A DNA stretch of 64,000 nucleotides, from NCBI GenBank assembly GCA_900317555.1, contig ONHF01000002.1:1-64000 (forward strand), written 5' to 3'. A program made the translations under genes and the position numbers. Below, piece by piece: positions 24,509 to 30,889 of the stretch. The DNA is from an uncultured Lachnospiraceae bacterium (GTDB taxonomy: Bacteria > Bacillota > Clostridia > Lachnospirales > Lachnospiraceae). Positions within the stretch are counted from its first letter, which is position 1. Each line of letters starts with the position of its first letter. Below the pieces are notes generated by a model. The model was given only the letters and a program-made list of their open reading frames with translations. It ran no database searches and was not told the DNA's origin.

Positions 24509-25795
24509 ATGCCCAAACTTCCCGCATGGTACAAACTGGATAATGCCGCCAAAATCGTTCCTGCGACCGCGCACGGCAGCGACACCCGCGTCTTCCGCAT
24601 CGTCTGCGAGCTCACGGAGCCGGTAGACCCCGTCACTTTGCAGCACGCGCTCGACAAGACGGTGCGCGAATACAACCATTTCAATGTCGTTCTTCGCAAG
24701 GGCTTCTTCTGGTACTATCTGGACGGTACCAGCCTTCGCCCCAAAGTGGAGAAAGATCATGAGAGCGCCTGCAGTATGCTGTACTATCCCGGCAGACGGA
24801 ATCTGCTCTACCGCGTATGTTATTTCGAGCGCAGAATCATTCTCGAAATGTTTCATGCGCTGGCGGACGGCACCGGCGCTTTCACGTTTCTGCAGACACT
24901 GGTAACCGGGTATCTTGCGGAAAAACACAGCCTTAAAGAAGAGCTTGCCCCGACCGAACGGTCTTCCTCTCAGGAGAAGACTTCGGATGCCTTCCGGCAT
25001 TTTTACTCTAAGACGGCAAAATCCTCTCAGCTAGGACAGATGACCGGAACCAGAGCCTATCAGATTCACGAAATCAGAGATGCGAACCTTCGCACACACT
25101 GCCTCGAGGGAACCGTTTCGGCAGGAGCTTTTCTGGATCTGGCGCGCAGGTATAATACAACTGCGGGCGTTCTCTCGACTGCTCTGATCATTGAGTCCAT
25201 CCTTCCCTGCATGTCTGCCCGCGAAAAGAAATATCCTGTCGTGATCAGCGTTCCCGTGAACCTGCGGCAGTATTTTCCTTCAGAAACGACGAGAAATTTC
25301 TTCGGCGTGATCAATGTCTCTTATAACGCTGCCGGATACGACGGAACCCTGGAGAGCATTCTGCCTGCGGTCAGGCGCTGTTTTGACGAGCAGCTTTCCA
25401 GGGACAGGATACTTGCGACCATGAATTCCTATTCCGGTCTTGAAAACAATCCCGCGATCCGTTTTGTCCCGCTCTTTATCAAGGATCTCGCCGTGCAGGG
25501 ATTTTCCGCGGCGGCAAGGCGCGGCACAACGGCGACCGTCTCCAACCTCGGCCGCATCCGCATGCCGGAAGCTCTGGACCCGTACATTGATAAGTTCTCG
25601 GCTTTTATGGCAACACCGAACATGCAGATCTGTATCTGCTCCTACGGTGATAAAATGGTATTCGGCGCATCTTCCGCTTTCTCCGGACATAGTGTCATGC
25701 TGAACTTTTTCCGGCGCCTTACCGCACTTGGCATTTCCACCGAGCTCGCAACGAATGATTATGATCTGCGCGGCAGCGCGCAGGAAGAAAGGTAG
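24509..25795 (+). CDS. Condensation-type acyltransferase (alcohol acetyltransferase-like)
   Basis: The 428-residue protein has the CoA-dependent acyltransferase / NRPS condensation fold. The catalytic H-x-x-x-D-G motif is FHALADGTGA, about residue 116. Later conserved elements are VISVPVNLRQYFPSETTRNFFGV and a TVSNLGRI segment, which matches the S-N-x-G region of this superfamily. No carrier-protein or adenylation domain is present. Substrates are unknown; transfer of an acyl group to an alcohol, lipid or sugar is the family range. It heads a plus-strand operon with a zinc-ribbon membrane protein (3-base gap) and an esterase-like hydrolase. GGAG precedes the ATG. Confidence 0.85.
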   Translation: MPKLPAWYKLDNAAKIVPATAHGSDTRVFRIVCELTEPVDPVTLQHALDKTVREYNHFNVVLRKGFFWYYLDGTSLRPKVEKDHESACSMLYYPGRRNLLYRVCYFERRIILEMFHALADGTGAFTFLQTLVTGYLAEKHSLKEELAPTERSSSQEKTSDAFRHFYSKTAKSSQLGQMTGTRAYQIHEIRDANLRTHCLEGTVSAGAFLDLARRYNTTAGVLSTALIIESILPCMSAREKKYPVVISVPVNLRQYFPSETTRNFFGVINVSYNAAGYDGTLESILPAVRRCFDEQLSRDRILATMNSYSGLENNPAIRFVPLFIKDLAVQGFSAAARRGTTATVSNLGRIRMPEALDPYIDKFSAFMATPNMQICICSYGDKMVFGASSAFSGHSVMLNFFRRLTALGISTELATNDYDLRGSAQEER

Positions 25796-25798
25796 ATC

Positions 25799-26458
25799 AT
25801 GCAGTACTGTTCCAAATGCGGCATCCATATCCGCGGAAATAAAAAATGCTGTCCGCTCTGTCAGGGACCGCTGACCGGGGAGCCGGAGGATCCGGCGTTT
25901 CCTGTTTTGCCGAAACATACGTATTCCAGCCTCTCCGTCATGAAGGTAGCTGGCTTCATCTTTGCCATATGTGAAATCGCGCTCGCCGCGCTCTGGTACC
26001 TTGTAAGAAACACGAGAGCATGGACTCCGGTCGCGGGCTTTGCCGTGTTCCTGCTGCTGGCCGATCTCGCCGTTGCGCTCTACTACCGCTATAACATCAT
26101 CAAAATTGTAACTTTCGAGTGCTACTTCATCATGCTGCTGATCTTTGCGGTCGACCGGCTGACCGGCTTCCATGGCTGGTCTCTGGCTTTTGTTCTGCCG
26201 TTTCTGTTTCTTCTTCTGATCGCTGCCACGACGATCATCGCGGGAACCGTCCGTCTGCAGCTGGTAGACTATGTCATTTATATCGCGGCCGATGTTCTTC
26301 TTGCATGCCTGCAGCTGATTCCGCTCGCGCGCCACGAAAATCCGTTTCCCGTTTTTACCGTTATTACGCTCGGTGTCATTCTCGCGTATGCCGCGGCAAT
26401 TGTAATCTTCCGGACGAAGGATTTAAAGAGCGCGTCCGGCAAGTGGTTTAATGTATGA
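25799..26458 (+). CDS. Zinc-ribbon multi-pass membrane protein, DUF6320-like
   Basis: The 219-residue protein opens with a four-cysteine zinc ribbon (YCSKCGIHIRGNKKCCPLCQ) and then has about six hydrophobic helices (for example VAGFIFAICEIALAALWYLV, GFAVFLLLADLAVALYY, LAFVLPFLFLLLIAATTI). I believe this matches DUF6320, from memory; no function is known to me. It starts 3 bases after the acyltransferase stop and its 3' end overlaps the hydrolase start by 8 bases, so the three products probably act together at the membrane. Confidence 0.78.
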   Translation: MQYCSKCGIHIRGNKKCCPLCQGPLTGEPEDPAFPVLPKHTYSSLSVMKVAGFIFAICEIALAALWYLVRNTRAWTPVAGFAVFLLLADLAVALYYRYNIIKIVTFECYFIMLLIFAVDRLTGFHGWSLAFVLPFLFLLLIAATTIIAGTVRLQLVDYVIYIAADVLLACLQLIPLARHENPFPVFTVITLGVILAYAAAIVIFRTKDLKSASGKWFNV

Positions 26459-27701
26459 GGCATTTAAGCTTATGACTTTGCGCAGTACTCCCACTTCATC
26501 TTCTTCCGGCAGTTCTTCTCCGAAAGAAGCGCTCGGCGCCCGCGCACAGGAGCTTCTCTCAAAGGCCGGCGGTGCCGTGGAAAACATCATCGGCAAACAT
26601 ATCGAAACCGCGGCCGAAGCACCGCTTTATGACGGCGCGCCGGTTGCAAAAGTCTGGTACCGGCTGCCGCTTTCCGGCGCGATGTCCGGCGACGGTTCTG
26701 AGTATCACATCTATATCAAGAAAGGGTTTACGTCCCGGCTGTGTTTGTTTTTCTCTGGCGGCGGCGTTGCCTGGAACGCGTTTACCGCGGCACGGCCGGT
26801 CACCGGCAGCGCCGTTGCCGCCGGCGCGCCGAACTATTACTGGAACAACCTGCGGCCGTTCACACAGTTTATGAACATCAATATCGGCATCACCGAAACG
26901 GACACGGCACGCAACCCGTTCGATGACTGGAACTTTGTCGTGATCACGTACGCGACCGGTGATTTTCATGTCGGCCGCGGCGATTTCCTGTATACTTCGG
27001 AAGACGGCCGGCAGGAGATTCTCCATTTCCACGGATACGAAAATTTCCGGGAGAGCATGAAAGCCGCTGTTTCTTTATTTCCGAATCCGTCAAAGCTTCT
27101 GATCGCCGGGGACTCCGCAGGCGCTTTCGCGGTCCCGGCACTCTCCGGCATTATCGCGGATGAATTTTATCCGGATTGCAGGGATATCACGCTGTTTTCC
27201 GACAGCGCGCAGCTTCTGTACAAGGACTGGCGGCAGACAGCACGGGATATCTGGAAAGCGGACAAACGTTTCTTTGAGCCGCTCCATACCGATAATATCT
27301 TTCTGGACTGGTATGAGGCACTATTAACGTCTCATAAGAACCGCTTCCGCTGTCTCTATGCTTCGACAACACATGACTATCTCCTGAGCACGTTTCTGAA
27401 TGATGTCATGAATAAATCTTATTCGACGGACAGTGCCGTGCAAGGCCTATTCTACCGGCAGCTGCAGGAGATGGTCAGGCAGCTGCGGAGCATCTGTCCC
27501 GGCATGGCATTTTTCATCAGCGACTGGAAACATCTGGTTCCTTCGCAGGGCGGTACGGTTCATACGGCGGTGCGTCAGCCGTTCTTCTACCTGAAAACAA
27601 AGGAAAACATCTCCATGGCCGAATGGCTTTCCGACGCCGCCTGCGGGAAACTGCAGGATGTCGGGATGGAGCTTTTAGAGCAGAAGGAAGCCGGCTGCTG
27701 A
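26451..27701 (+). CDS. Pectin-acetylesterase/NOTUM-like alpha/beta hydrolase
   Basis: The 416-residue protein resembles the pectin acetylesterase family: LCLFFSGGGVAWNAFTA (oxyanion region), VVITYATGDFHVGRGD, the nucleophile elbow LIAGDSAGAFAVP with the catalytic serine, and a late SQGGTVHTAV histidine. No signal peptide is visible, so it seems intracellular, unlike plant cell-wall enzymes. A deacylase acting on the product of the acyltransferase in the same operon is a reasonable guess. The start at 26451 overlaps the upstream gene; an alternative is at 26472. Confidence 0.82.
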   Translation: MYEAFKLMTLRSTPTSSSSGSSSPKEALGARAQELLSKAGGAVENIIGKHIETAAEAPLYDGAPVAKVWYRLPLSGAMSGDGSEYHIYIKKGFTSRLCLFFSGGGVAWNAFTAARPVTGSAVAAGAPNYYWNNLRPFTQFMNINIGITETDTARNPFDDWNFVVITYATGDFHVGRGDFLYTSEDGRQEILHFHGYENFRESMKAAVSLFPNPSKLLIAGDSAGAFAVPALSGIIADEFYPDCRDITLFSDSAQLLYKDWRQTARDIWKADKRFFEPLHTDNIFLDWYEALLTSHKNRFRCLYASTTHDYLLSTFLNDVMNKSYSTDSAVQGLFYRQLQEMVRQLRSICPGMAFFISDWKHLVPSQGGTVHTAVRQPFFYLKTKENISMAEWLSDAACGKLQDVGMELLEQKEAGC

Positions 27702-27745
27702 AACTGCCTCCTGTTCTTTCCGTACCAGCCAGATATTTCAAAGCA

Positions 27746-27792
27746 TAAAAATAAGGACTTCAGACCAATCATCCGACGGATCTGAAGTCCTT
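27746..27792. terminator. 12-bp hairpin shared by the hydrolase operon and the candidate ncRNA
   Basis: AAGGACTTCAGA (27753-27764) pairs perfectly with TCTGAAGTCCTT (27781-27792). The minus-strand side continues ATTTTTATG, a proper U-tract, so it ends minus-strand transcripts. It also lies 50 bases after the plus-strand hydrolase. Confidence 0.8.
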
Positions 27793-28184
27793 ATCTATGC
27801 GAAATTTCCAATGGACTGAACCTCTCTTTCCTAAAATCTATTCAGTTGTACCCTGCAGGTCCTTTCTGTACCTGCTGCCAGCCTCGTCATTACCGTCCGT
27901 ATATCCTTAAAGGATTTGCCTTCCGATATGACTCTGTTCGATCTTACCTTCGTTTCCTGTCGAATTCAGCTGCTTCTTCATCTACCGGATTATGGATCTT
28001 TGGACCTCAAGTCTTTGTTGGAGTGTACCCCCTTCCTGCAGATTCTCCTTCTTCGTCTTTGTAGATCTGTGGAACTTACCTAGCCGATTGGAGTTTACCA
28101 TCCTTTCTTCTGTATCTCTCCTTCTTCCTTTCTCGTCAGAAGAGGAGGAACCTTTGGATTTACGATTGGTATTTCCTTTTCTTG
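27746..28184 (-). ncRNA. Candidate large structured non-coding RNA (about 440 nt)
   Basis: There is no coding frame of useful length on either strand; the longest minus frames have about 39 and 24 codons. The segment begins after a near-consensus promoter and ends at an intrinsic terminator. Reading the minus strand I find hairpins: CTCCTCTTC with GAAGAAGGAG (one bulge), TTCC-A-CAGAT with ATCTG-CA-GGAA, ATCCT-TTA-AGGAT, GCAGGT with ACCTGC, and ACTGAA with TTCAGT. Four GGTAA boxes and three GGTACA boxes recur. ACCAATC near the 5' end complements GATTGGT in the terminator loop. It does not match the RNase P, tmRNA, SRP or 6S signatures I know. The class is unassigned. Confidence 0.6.
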
Positions 28185-28189
28185 ACTAT

Positions 28190-28218
28190 AATATATCAGC
28201 GGGCGGGTATATTGTCAA
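28190..28218 (-). promoter_or_regulatory. Near-consensus promoter of the candidate ncRNA
   Basis: Minus strand TTGACA (28213-28218), a 17-base spacer and an extended -10 TG-A-TATATT (hexamer 28190-28195). This is one of the strongest promoter sequences in the window, and no ORF follows it for 440 bases. Confidence 0.8.
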
Positions 28219-28322
28219 TATATTTCATCTATGAATTTATATTATCTGTTTATTCGTAATATTGTATCTTATTCTGTAAACAATAGATAGTGTCTGGTTC
28301 TTTCCAAAAGGACGAAAGAGAA

Positions 28323-28357
28323 GGAACGGGAGTACCTCCATCAGGCTCCTCCGTTCC
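28323..28357 (-). terminator. Terminator of the VWA surface-protein gene
   Basis: GGAACGG (28323-28329) pairs with CCGTTCC (28351-28357), with further inner pairs. The minus-strand side continues TTCTCTTTCGTCCTTTT. It lies 47 bases after the stop at 28404. Confidence 0.75.
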
Positions 28358-28403
28358 CTCTCCGATCAATATCTTTAATTATAAGCCGCCAAATGCTGCA
28401 TGA

Positions 28404-30617
28404 TTAGCTGTTTTTTCCTGCAATCCTGCGTTGAAGGATCAGAACACCTGCTCCTCCTGCAGCCGCTGCCATCAGAAATAGCCAGAGCATTATATTATTC
28501 TCATCACCGGTCTGTATACGGGCAGGACTTGCCGGCGTAGTTACAGGGCTTACAGATGCTGCCGGGACTACCGCTGCAGGTGCCTGCACCTGCGGCGTCT
28601 CTGCTGGTAAAGAAGTCTTTTCCGGACCGGATGATGCCGGACTTCCCTGGGAAGTGCTCTCAGAAGGCTTTATTTCTGCCGTTTTGACGCTGTAGCTGAC
28701 CGTCGGCAGCAGAAACTCCTCTTCAGGTTCCGTTTCTCCGTTGGAATCTACCGGACGGAGCACTGTATTTGTCGTTACCCGTAAAGCTTCCTTGTGCTGT
28801 TCTCCGAATTCATCATATTCACCGTATGTACCTGCAGCGGATTTCGGATTCACAAGCGTAAGCCTGTAATTCAGGCGGATGCGTTCGAAATTAGTGACGT
28901 TTTCATTTGTTTTCCAGATGAAGTGTTCGTCCGCCTTTTTCTCTCCCGGAACATAGGTGACTTCAAAACGGTAAGTGCCATCATCCTTTTTCCCGAATCC
29001 GAACTGGTTCTCCGTGATTTTCTCGGCGGCCAGCGTTTGCTCCACGCCTTCCCCGTTCGAGACAACGATGGTCATATCTTCCGGCTTTTTCAAATCGAAA
29101 TCATAGTCATTATCGGCAAAACCAATATGGTCTTCAATCGTGCTGCCATTACCAAGCATGTAGAGAATCTGATTTTTAATGCTGACAAAGTCTGCCACGG
29201 CATTTCCATTCAGGTATTCCATAAAAGCCCGGTGGCCGCCATCTTTTTCATTCAGGCTCTGCACCGCTACGGAATAGCAGTGATATCTGGAAGCCAGTTC
29301 ATGGTAGGTATTCGCGGCATGCAGAAAAGCCATATCCATATTGCTCGCGGTTCTTGGATTGCGATTCATCGTCATGAAACCGTCACTTGCAATTTGGTCC
29401 GATGTCATGCTCTGCCAGCCATCATAATACTTCCATACAAAGTCATAAGCATCGCCGTTGCTTTCGCTGTTTCTGGCGGCAACATCCTTTAAGTATGCAT
29501 CCCAGGATTGCGGATCACTTGTTGTGGGTCTTCCCACATTATTATCATAAGGAGCACTCGGGTAGTACCGGCTCTCATCATAGAATCCGCCATAAGCAGT
29601 TCCTCCAGCCTTTTCGACAGGAATAAACGAGCGGGAATACGGCACGTTGTAGTCACCATTCTTGCAATAGAGATAGGTGTCTCCATCTGAAACAAGGATC
29701 ATATACTTGCGGCTGTCCGGAATATCTGTATTGCGGGTAAGAACTTCCTTTGCTGCCAGAAGTCCGGCATGCAGATTGGTGCCGCCTCCGTTTTGTGTAT
29801 TAAACGCAGTTTGAATCTCATCATACTTTGTTGCAAGATCATAAGATCCGTGATCGTGTCCTGTGCGGTTAAACTCGATGATATCGACCTGCACCCTGGC
29901 ACCGGTCTTCTCCGCAGCGTCTTTCAGTTCAGTAAGCAGGTCCATTGCTTTATCCCTTGTATCGGAAAAACTGGACTTGTCCAGCACAAAACAGACTTCG
30001 CTCGCAAGCTTCACCTCCGCTGAAGGCAATGTCAGTGTCACATCCGTCTCAAACTGATCGTTCAGCTGTGATGCCCGGATTGACTTTTTGTAATCCCACT
30101 GTGCGGCTGCGTATTCGGCAAAGGTTTCATTGGAAATGTTCTCCGCGGGTTCTTCCTCCGCTTCTTCCGGTTCCGGGGCTTCCGCATCTGCCTGTTCCGG
30201 TTTCTCAACCGGAGCTGCTGCAGATGCCTCTGCCGGCACCGGAGAAGTTTTATCCATAAGAATATTCCCTTTTGTTTGATCTGCAGTCTCTGCCGCAGGC
30301 TCCGGAACTATCGAATCATCAGACGCCGCAGCACCTGCTGCCGGATCATCTGATGATGCCGCGTCTGTTTCGCCTGCAGTATTGTCAGGCGTCTTCACAT
30401 CCGAGCCTGTTTCCGGCACTTCTGCTGCAGGCTTTTCCGCATCGGAGGTCGTATCCTTATCCCCGGATAACTCCGTTGAAATCACGGTGCTGCCAGCCGA
30501 TCCCCCGGTCGTTGTTTCTTCTGCTCTTGCTGTCACAGGGACAGTGCCTGCAATAAGCAGGCAGCATAGCGCCAGACGAAGGCAAGCATTCCTGAGCCTA
30601 TTCCCTTTCGTTTTCAT
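28404..30617 (-). CDS. Secreted, cell-wall-anchored VWA-domain protein
   Basis: The 737-residue protein starts at 30617 (GGGGGGAG upstream) with a signal peptide ending near TARAEE. Residues about 35-165 are a Pro/Ala/Glu/Asp-rich stalk. A von Willebrand A domain follows: EVCFVLDKSSFSDTRDKAMDLL (MIDAS D-x-S, whose fifth position is Phe not Ser), GGGTNLHAGLLAAKEVL (Thr), YMILVSDGDTYLY (Asp). After an Ig-like region and a second Ser/Pro-rich stalk, the C-terminus has ARIQTGDENN, a hydrophobic helix and basic RRIAGKNS: a degenerate sortase signal. It is probably an adhesin or pilus-tip-like protein. No sortase gene is in the window. Confidence 0.85.
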   Translation of the reverse strand: MKTKGNRLRNACLRLALCCLLIAGTVPVTARAEETTTGGSAGSTVISTELSGDKDTTSDAEKPAAEVPETGSDVKTPDNTAGETDAASSDDPAAGAAASDDSIVPEPAAETADQTKGNILMDKTSPVPAEASAAAPVEKPEQADAEAPEPEEAEEEPAENISNETFAEYAAAQWDYKKSIRASQLNDQFETDVTLTLPSAEVKLASEVCFVLDKSSFSDTRDKAMDLLTELKDAAEKTGARVQVDIIEFNRTGHDHGSYDLATKYDEIQTAFNTQNGGGTNLHAGLLAAKEVLTRNTDIPDSRKYMILVSDGDTYLYCKNGDYNVPYSRSFIPVEKAGGTAYGGFYDESRYYPSAPYDNNVGRPTTSDPQSWDAYLKDVAARNSESNGDAYDFVWKYYDGWQSMTSDQIASDGFMTMNRNPRTASNMDMAFLHAANTYHELASRYHCYSVAVQSLNEKDGGHRAFMEYLNGNAVADFVSIKNQILYMLGNGSTIEDHIGFADNDYDFDLKKPEDMTIVVSNGEGVEQTLAAEKITENQFGFGKKDDGTYRFEVTYVPGEKKADEHFIWKTNENVTNFERIRLNYRLTLVNPKSAAGTYGEYDEFGEQHKEALRVTTNTVLRPVDSNGETEPEEEFLLPTVSYSVKTAEIKPSESTSQGSPASSGPEKTSLPAETPQVQAPAAVVPAASVSPVTTPASPARIQTGDENNIMLWLFLMAAAAGGAGVLILQRRIAGKNS

Positions 30618-30673
30618 CTGATCTCCCCCCTTGTCGTTCTGACAAATTGCTCTACGGCTAAATAATTTCAATT

Positions 30674-30702: not shown

Positions 30703-30889
30703 TATATTATATAATTATGCTATATTATTAGCCGTCATTTTTGTGCATATTTTATGGTTATATTATATATCTATATCGGTTTACATCAGTAGATTCATCG
30801 GATTGTATACAGACCGGTATCATTGTCTGTTTCTGCAGAATTCGTGCTACACTTGAAACACAGCCACAATTTCAGAAAGGATCACCTCT

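Follow-up and report, generated by a model that had tools for sequence, protein, structure and literature searches.

We found that a 64,000-nucleotide stretch of DNA from an uncultured Lachnospiraceae bacterium (hereafter the window) carries one member of a multi-copy RNA family. Sequence comparison shows the family to possess repeats that read as ribosome-binding sites and are followed by early in-frame stops, together with a covarying hairpin that half of the copies carry and whose loop also occurs at ileS. The locus in the window is a genuine RNA gene that matches no Rfam family and consists of a promoter, approximately 440 nt of transcribed sequence and a terminator, and the anatomy of the family as a whole is well supported by the comparisons described below.

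The RNA gene lies on the minus strand in the gap between two flanking genes (27702-28403), within which an RNA unit had been proposed at 27745-28220. The first-pass annotation described the gap as a 0.7-kb stretch free of ORFs. The gap itself is confirmed, but it does contain mechanically called ORFs, none longer than 80 aa and none gene-like in our judgement. On one side is a convergent pectinacetylesterase-like gene (26451-27701, plus strand), which is itself preceded by a gene for a protein without a Pfam match (24509-25795, plus strand) and an adjoining gene for a DUF6320 protein (25799-26458, plus strand). On the other side is a gene (28404-30671, minus strand) whose product has a sub-threshold VWA match. 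We place the transcribed region at 27740-28184, with ends inferred from the positions of the promoter and the terminator; a copy that is 95% identical is found in a second genome, G004. The promoter, TTGACA-17-TATATT with an extended -10 element (TGATATATT), was named in the earlier annotation and is located at 28218-28190, with 11 of 12 matches and a TG before the -10 hexamer. This pattern was found once in the window as compared with 1.2 occurrences expected from shuffled sequences. Because the match is no rarer than in shuffles, the promoter counts mainly because homologues keep it: TTGACA is present in 21 of 25 promoters of the family, the window promoter included. An upstream box (ATTACGAATAAACAGATAATATAAAT) lies at 28235-28260, and 14 of 25 homologous promoters have a loose AGAYRA pattern at the corresponding position, a count made without a control. 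A similar-looking sequence, ACAGACAAT, is found on the minus strand at 30822-30830, approximately 150 nt upstream of the VWA-like gene; it resembles the RNA promoter box and may be a chance occurrence, with two more elsewhere in the window. At the other end of the unit, the sequence and its predicted fold reveal an intrinsic terminator, a long hairpin with a U-rich tail at 27747-27792, which agrees with the terminator and U-tract reported earlier. The terminator-pattern tool, whose loop limit is 8, lists none at this place. With a promoter, a long terminator hairpin and no gene-like ORF, the proposal of a separate transcription unit lacking a normal protein gene is upheld.

An Infernal search against Rfam 15, which had been suggested as a check, gave gathering-level matches in the whole window only for two tRNAs, both located elsewhere, and none at the RNA locus; ROOL, GOLLD, OLE, raiA, HEARO, tmRNA, RNase P, SRP and 6S were among the families covered. 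At E values of up to 10, the window copy has sub-threshold matches only, none of them plausible. Scans of further loci likewise produced only sub-threshold matches (10 loci at E up to 1 and 6 loci at E up to 5), and in the six-locus scan weak OrzO-P and ctRNA_p42d matches overlap the terminators of RNA copies. Just beyond the copy in G030, at 1642-1728 of locus L007, there is a sub-threshold match to the Clostridiales-1 RNA (31.7 bits against 48). The window copy has no match in phage or plasmid records, the RGIG2159 copy has no plasmid match, and two family patterns have no match in viral contigs. A phage or plasmid origin thus finds no support in the records searched. A literature search covering open-licence papers found no description of such an RNA.

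That relatives carry the RNA was borne out by the recovery of 27 related transcripts besides the window copy. A BLASTN search of 146 genomes found a close copy in G004 (95%) and, in five more genomes of the genus, short matches with E values from 8e-9 to 4e-4. The complete set of 28 transcripts, the window copy included and one of them partial (G056p), ranges in length from 106 to 861 nt. Within the genus, 18 of 62 genomes contributed, counting that of the window, and within a second genus 2 of 29 did so, both figures being lower bounds. The second-genus copies are those of RGIG2159 (G512, a goat-colon Clostridia genome) and G720. Some genomes have two or three copies, and the hosts, which are gut and rumen bacteria, include Lachnospiraceae RUG057, UBA2734 and NK3A20, the last of which (L045) we take to be a cultured rumen isolate. 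The homologues have a common plan, with a promoter at the start, repeats of the form (A)GGAGGUAC-NNN-CCR, a terminator at the end and, in many copies, a hairpin whose loop is UGACGAGAAAG.

How these transcripts were collected bears on the tests that follow. The pattern AGGTACNNNCCRWTG gave 126 matches in 54 of 62 genomes as compared with 74 for its reversed control, and most single matches therefore mean little. From these 126 matches, 30 loci and 20 regions were inspected, and 13 loci giving 14 transcripts were taken. These later 13 loci were picked as intergenic and with short frames already visible at the matched repeat; those containing long ORFs were set aside. Two other patterns, CTGACGAGAAAGG (44 matches against 33 reversed, in 142 genomes) and TGACGAGAAAG (67 against 28, in 10 genomes), also have controls that weaken single matches, indicating that the sequence alone is not rare and that the claim rests on stem, place and context. 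A family-wide pattern, which is unable to match GGTCCAAAG, gave 10 matches in 8 of 397 genomes with 5 for the reversed control, a result from which absence outside the genus can hardly be judged. The pattern AGACCAATGTACTAA, which is narrow and carried by some copies only, was found in none of 391 genomes searched class-wide. Two candidates were discarded: locus L087 (G478), examined as a copy, did not resemble the RNA, and a sequence common to the RNA and ileS, GGTANNNNCC, was coding sequence (KVNP) caught by the search pattern.

The window copy illustrates the arrangement of the repeats. Read on the minus strand from its 5' end, it begins with a hairpin at 28120-28145 whose loop, UGACGAGAAAG, occupies 28128-28138. 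Repeat A1 (28080-28106) follows, a ribosome-binding site and then AUC GGC UAG (28080-28088), and directly 3' of its stop lies element B1, GUAAGUUCCACAGAUCUACAAAG (28057-28079), the likeness of which to sequences beside homologous repeats was judged by eye. Repeat A2 (28007-28036) is a ribosome-binding site followed by ACA AAG ACU UGA (28007-28018); homologous repeats keep a stop here, either UAA or UGA, and the predicted anti-Shine-Dalgarno (anti-SD) duplex of A2 is -16.0 kcal/mol. Element B2, GGUCCAAAGAUCCAUAAUCC (27987-28006), lies 3' of the A2 stop, and B elements stand after several stops, again by visual comparison only. Element C, ACAACUGAAUA (27839-27849), is located upstream of the last ribosome-binding site, and its ACTGAATA sequence is found in 13 of the 28 transcripts. 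Its likeness to the rRNA spacer is only partial, and the rRNA regions of G061 are partly N or contain other genes. The last repeat, A3 (27791-27829), consists of GAGAGGUUCAGUCCA and then UUG GAA AUU UCG CAU AGA UAA (27791-27811), a micro-ORF reading MEISHR. Only A3 has a usual start codon (UUG), the corresponding codons of A1 and A2 being AUC and ACA. The four GGTAA and three GGTACA boxes pointed out in the first-pass annotation are present, and such counts were reached by 1 and 0 of 1000 dinucleotide shuffles. Two of these seven boxes, those of A1 and A2, sit in the conserved repeat, for which the third representative is a GGTTCA copy; the remaining five are outside the repeat, one of them inside B1 and one adjoining element C.

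Across the family, the codons that follow the repeats stop early in one particular frame. The frame test used GGTANNNNCCR only and required nothing downstream; duplicates were dropped and apparent chance matches kept. In an earlier listing of the repeats, 6 of 47 had been removed as duplicates, B1-type AGGTAAGTTCCA had been skipped and variants had been added after inspection of the sequences. For the first 14 transcripts, a stop within six codons was found in frame in 25 of 30 distinct repeats, as compared with 8 and 5 in the other two frames. Among the later RNAs, 15 repeats that were not matched by the search pattern gave 12 in-frame stops as compared with 1 and 1. The 13 pattern-matched repeats gave 11 as compared with 4 and 3, which is an unfair test given that the pattern demanded ATG or TTG and that the loci were picked after short frames had been seen. 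For the 45 fair repeats, that is, those not chosen by start codon, a stop falls within six codons in 37, as compared with 9 and 6 for the two alternative frames. For all 58 repeats the counts are 48 as compared with 13 and 9, and 10 of 58 fail. Since the repeats are mutually related, P values overstate the case. The stops over the 58 repeats are 26 TAA, 17 TGA and 14 TAG, with one repeat lacking any, and this use of all three stop codons fits selection for termination as such and not for a particular nucleotide motif. The codon at the fixed position in the 45 fair repeats is AUG in 13, UUG in 6, AAG in 7, AUC in 6, ACA in 5 and another in 8; thus a usual start (AUG or UUG) is present in 19 of the 45 and missing from 26.

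The repeats are also predicted to pair well with the 16S tail. The median anti-SD duplex is -11.8 kcal/mol as compared with -4.5 kcal/mol for all 14-mers, and 45 of 58 repeats reach -8 kcal/mol or lower as compared with 16% of all 14-mers, a difference to which the fixed GGTA in the repeat definition contributes. Most repeats thus have what a minigene RNA would be expected to have, a ribosome-binding site and a near stop in a single frame. Accessibility of the sites in predicted folds is not raised, with a mean unpaired fraction of 0.45 as compared with 0.50 for the RNA body and with 24 of 63 sites above the body.

The hairpin with the loop UGACGAGAAAG is present in 14 of the 28 transcripts, giving 15 distinct hairpins. 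In these, 94.7% of stem cells are paired and all five pairs have changed on both sides; covariation is 1.135, as compared with 0.247 when shuffled and at most 0.413 when slid. This hairpin, the helix examined for covariation, clearly covaries among the homologues. Of the 28 transcripts, 16 contain GACGAGAAA and 12 lack it; in 11 of the 16 it lies within about the first quarter of the RNA, and in the remaining ones it is found nearer to the 3' end. In G019 (L222, approximately 1200-1650), two members of the family stand in succession, and the first of these is only 106 nt long, consisting of a promoter, a ribosome-binding site, an eight-codon ORF and a terminator with the loop UGACGAGAAAG.

The same loop precedes ileS. 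A search for ileS gave a match in 53 of 61 genus genomes, and 48 leaders were retrieved regardless of whether they contain the loop. The exact UGACGAGAAAG loop is present in 24 of these 48, or in 25 of 49 when G061, which was added for having the loop, is counted. Two more leaders have a one-base variant of the loop and were left out of the covariation test. In the ileS leaders, 77.4% of the stem is paired and covariation is 0.512 as compared with 0.179, and 13 of the 25 loop-bearing leaders have at most three unbroken pairs adjoining the loop. The invariance of the loop is partly a product of how it was searched for; the pairing of the stem is not. In all 25 leaders that have the loop, it ends 12-22 nt before the ileS ATG, so that a factor bound there would cover the initiation site. 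Among the 67 exact 11-mers found in ten genomes (28 for the reversed sequence), a stem of four or more unbroken pairs is seen only at copies of the RNA, in leaders of ileS and at one position within a long ORF (G005:C149). The ileS loop is present in 12 of 15 genomes with a known RNA copy as compared with 12 of 33 others, the latter being genomes in which no copy is known (Fisher P 0.011, or 0.005 with G061 included, both uncorrected for kinship). By eye, four outgroup ileS leaders have no such loop, and a T-box covariance search at E up to 1 found no match in L067 (ileS of G000 plus 1.5 kb upstream), the one leader scanned. The hairpin at the ileS ribosome-binding site (G000:C10:85764 in L067, and other leaders of the genus) is by itself a candidate for a translational operator. 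In L257 and L264 (G021 and G034), a gene that we recognised from its sequence, presumably asparaginyl-tRNA synthetase, starts from the same GGTACAGACCGATG site, close behind another frame.

We therefore regard the window copy as one member of an RNA family built around ribosome-binding sites, most of them trailed, in frame, by a stop no more than six codons away. Each site would load a ribosome or a 30S subunit, and at most a few codons would be translated before its release. Such an RNA may serve as a decoy for ribosomes or for initiation, or its own control may depend on the traffic of ribosomes; it would not act as a folded machine. The UGACGAGAAAG hairpin, which roughly one copy in two carries and which also occurs at ileS, might recruit a common trans-acting factor, which could couple the level of the RNA with the translation of ileS. 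We give this whole reading, the shared ileS factor included, an even chance of being correct. A more specific proposal, which we advance only tentatively on the same sequence comparisons, is that the RNA represents a new regulatory kind in which tandem ribosome-binding sites and frames of 1-6 codons capture or time initiating ribosomes, with a link to ileS through a putative UGACGAGAAAG-binding factor.

The last ORF of each RNA raises another explanation, namely that the RNA is a micropeptide gene whose product is the 3'-terminal ORF and whose upstream micro-ORFs tune its translation, for example through reinitiation. Such an ORF, 5-14 codons long, preceded by a purine-rich stretch and ending 37-57 nt before the end of the transcript, is present in 25 of 28 transcripts, and the position of its end coincides with the place just 5' of the terminator. 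Five of these ORFs, from three genomes, keep QINRFI[SR] through synonymous changes, using four Arg codons, both TCA and AGT for serine, and all three stops, and these changes speak for translation of that subset. Beginnings of the MDV and MDK types also recur among the last ORFs. However, there is little agreement among the end peptides, which read MEISHR in the window, MGQHS in G030 and MGNEF in G015a; the RGIG2159 and G720 copies have two-codon frames at this place and G039c has no stop. Many upstream frames, moreover, are only 2-3 codons long and lack a usual start. We consider it unlikely, on balance, that the terminal peptide is what the family is for.

It is also conceivable that the RNA is a sponge for an RNA-binding protein, in the manner of CsrB, with GGUACNNNCCR or the hairpin as the protein site and with the same site in target mRNAs such as ileS. 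The variable number of repeats per RNA and the loop held in common with ileS leaders would be expected of a sponge, and CsrB and CsrC likewise contain a short motif in variable number. A protein site, however, has no need of in-frame stops drawn from all three stop codons, and GACGAGAAA occurs at most twice per RNA. The site of CsrA is GGA in hairpin loops, whereas the core here is GGUAC-NNN-CCR with in-frame stops. AGGAGG is contained in many of the repeats, and a CsrC match in the window is very weak (E 0.5, 12 bits as compared with the 61 needed). Taken together, these points make the sponge explanation improbable.

The first-pass annotation had proposed that the locus encodes a new class of large structured ("ornate") RNA. 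The lack of a protein gene, the RNA's own promoter and terminator, and a covarying helix would agree with such a class, as would the folding z score of the window RNA, -2.96. This score is -2.53 on 452 nt and falls to -1.29 without the last 62 nt (40 shuffles each for the 452-nt pair). Over the 28 transcripts, the mean z is -3.4 with the last 62 nt and -1.2 without them (40 shuffles each), so the folding excess comes on average from the 3' end, which speaks against an ornate fold. Nine of 28 transcripts keep a z of -2.0 or lower without the last 62 nt, and local folds may exist in some transcripts. The annotation had further suggested that ACCAATC near the 5' end could pair with GATTGGT in the terminator loop and join the ends. 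Both segments are indeed present in the window, but the pairing is not conserved: 1 of 14 transcripts, the window copy, has both, and the 95% identical sister in G004 has lost one side. The same scan found different 7-nt end complements in G061a, G039a and G036, and a 7-nt match is therefore unremarkable. We rejected the end-joining helix as private to the window sequence. With lengths of 106-861 nt, variable modules and near-background folding beyond the terminator, the ornate class is unsupported, and we rate it as quite improbable. Like ROOL, GOLLD and OLE, this is a long bacterial RNA, and the functions of those RNAs are unknown or partly known; a 659-nt ROOL, env-120, came from the cow rumen (PMC12286853). 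Unlike them, the present RNA has no Rfam match and no complex conserved fold was found in it, its repeats being ribosome-binding sites with early stops. The phage link of ROOL and GOLLD has no counterpart in the phage and plasmid records searched with the window copy or in the viral contigs searched with two family patterns. Finally, the RNA might be a translated leader or attenuator for a gene next to it. A micro-ORF beside a terminator is the classical architecture of such leaders, and the copy G058b has a same-strand frame approximately 100 nt downstream, but the next gene in the window is convergent (26451-27701, plus strand), and we regard this explanation as very improbable.

Minimal ORFs in which translation rather than the product may matter are known from the phage bar minigenes. 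A further example is mgtQ, a very short ORF for which the act of translation may likewise matter more than what is made (PMC8092293). It is one short ORF beside a regulated gene, whereas here several sites are found in a stand-alone RNA that sometimes exists in two or three copies per genome. The uORF-type RNA motifs odc1 and uORFC-8-2, the latter before cysS, combine a conserved RNA element with a short ORF (PMC8632094). They resemble the present family in that combination and in the link to an aminoacyl-tRNA synthetase (theirs being cysS). They are cis leaders, whereas the RNA considered here stands alone and the ileS leader shares the hairpin only.

If the arrays are used as we read them, these would be RNA genes that work through ribosome-binding sites and micro-ORFs rather than through a fold, a pairing seed or a protein. 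Such RNA genes escape both ORF callers and RNA-family searches. With a named strain, NK3A20, among the hosts, tests should be feasible. If the reading is true, it would place a further class of RNA between mRNA and non-coding RNA, would provide a natural system for initiation on frames of 1-6 codons and at non-AUG starts, and would reveal a control element of ileS.
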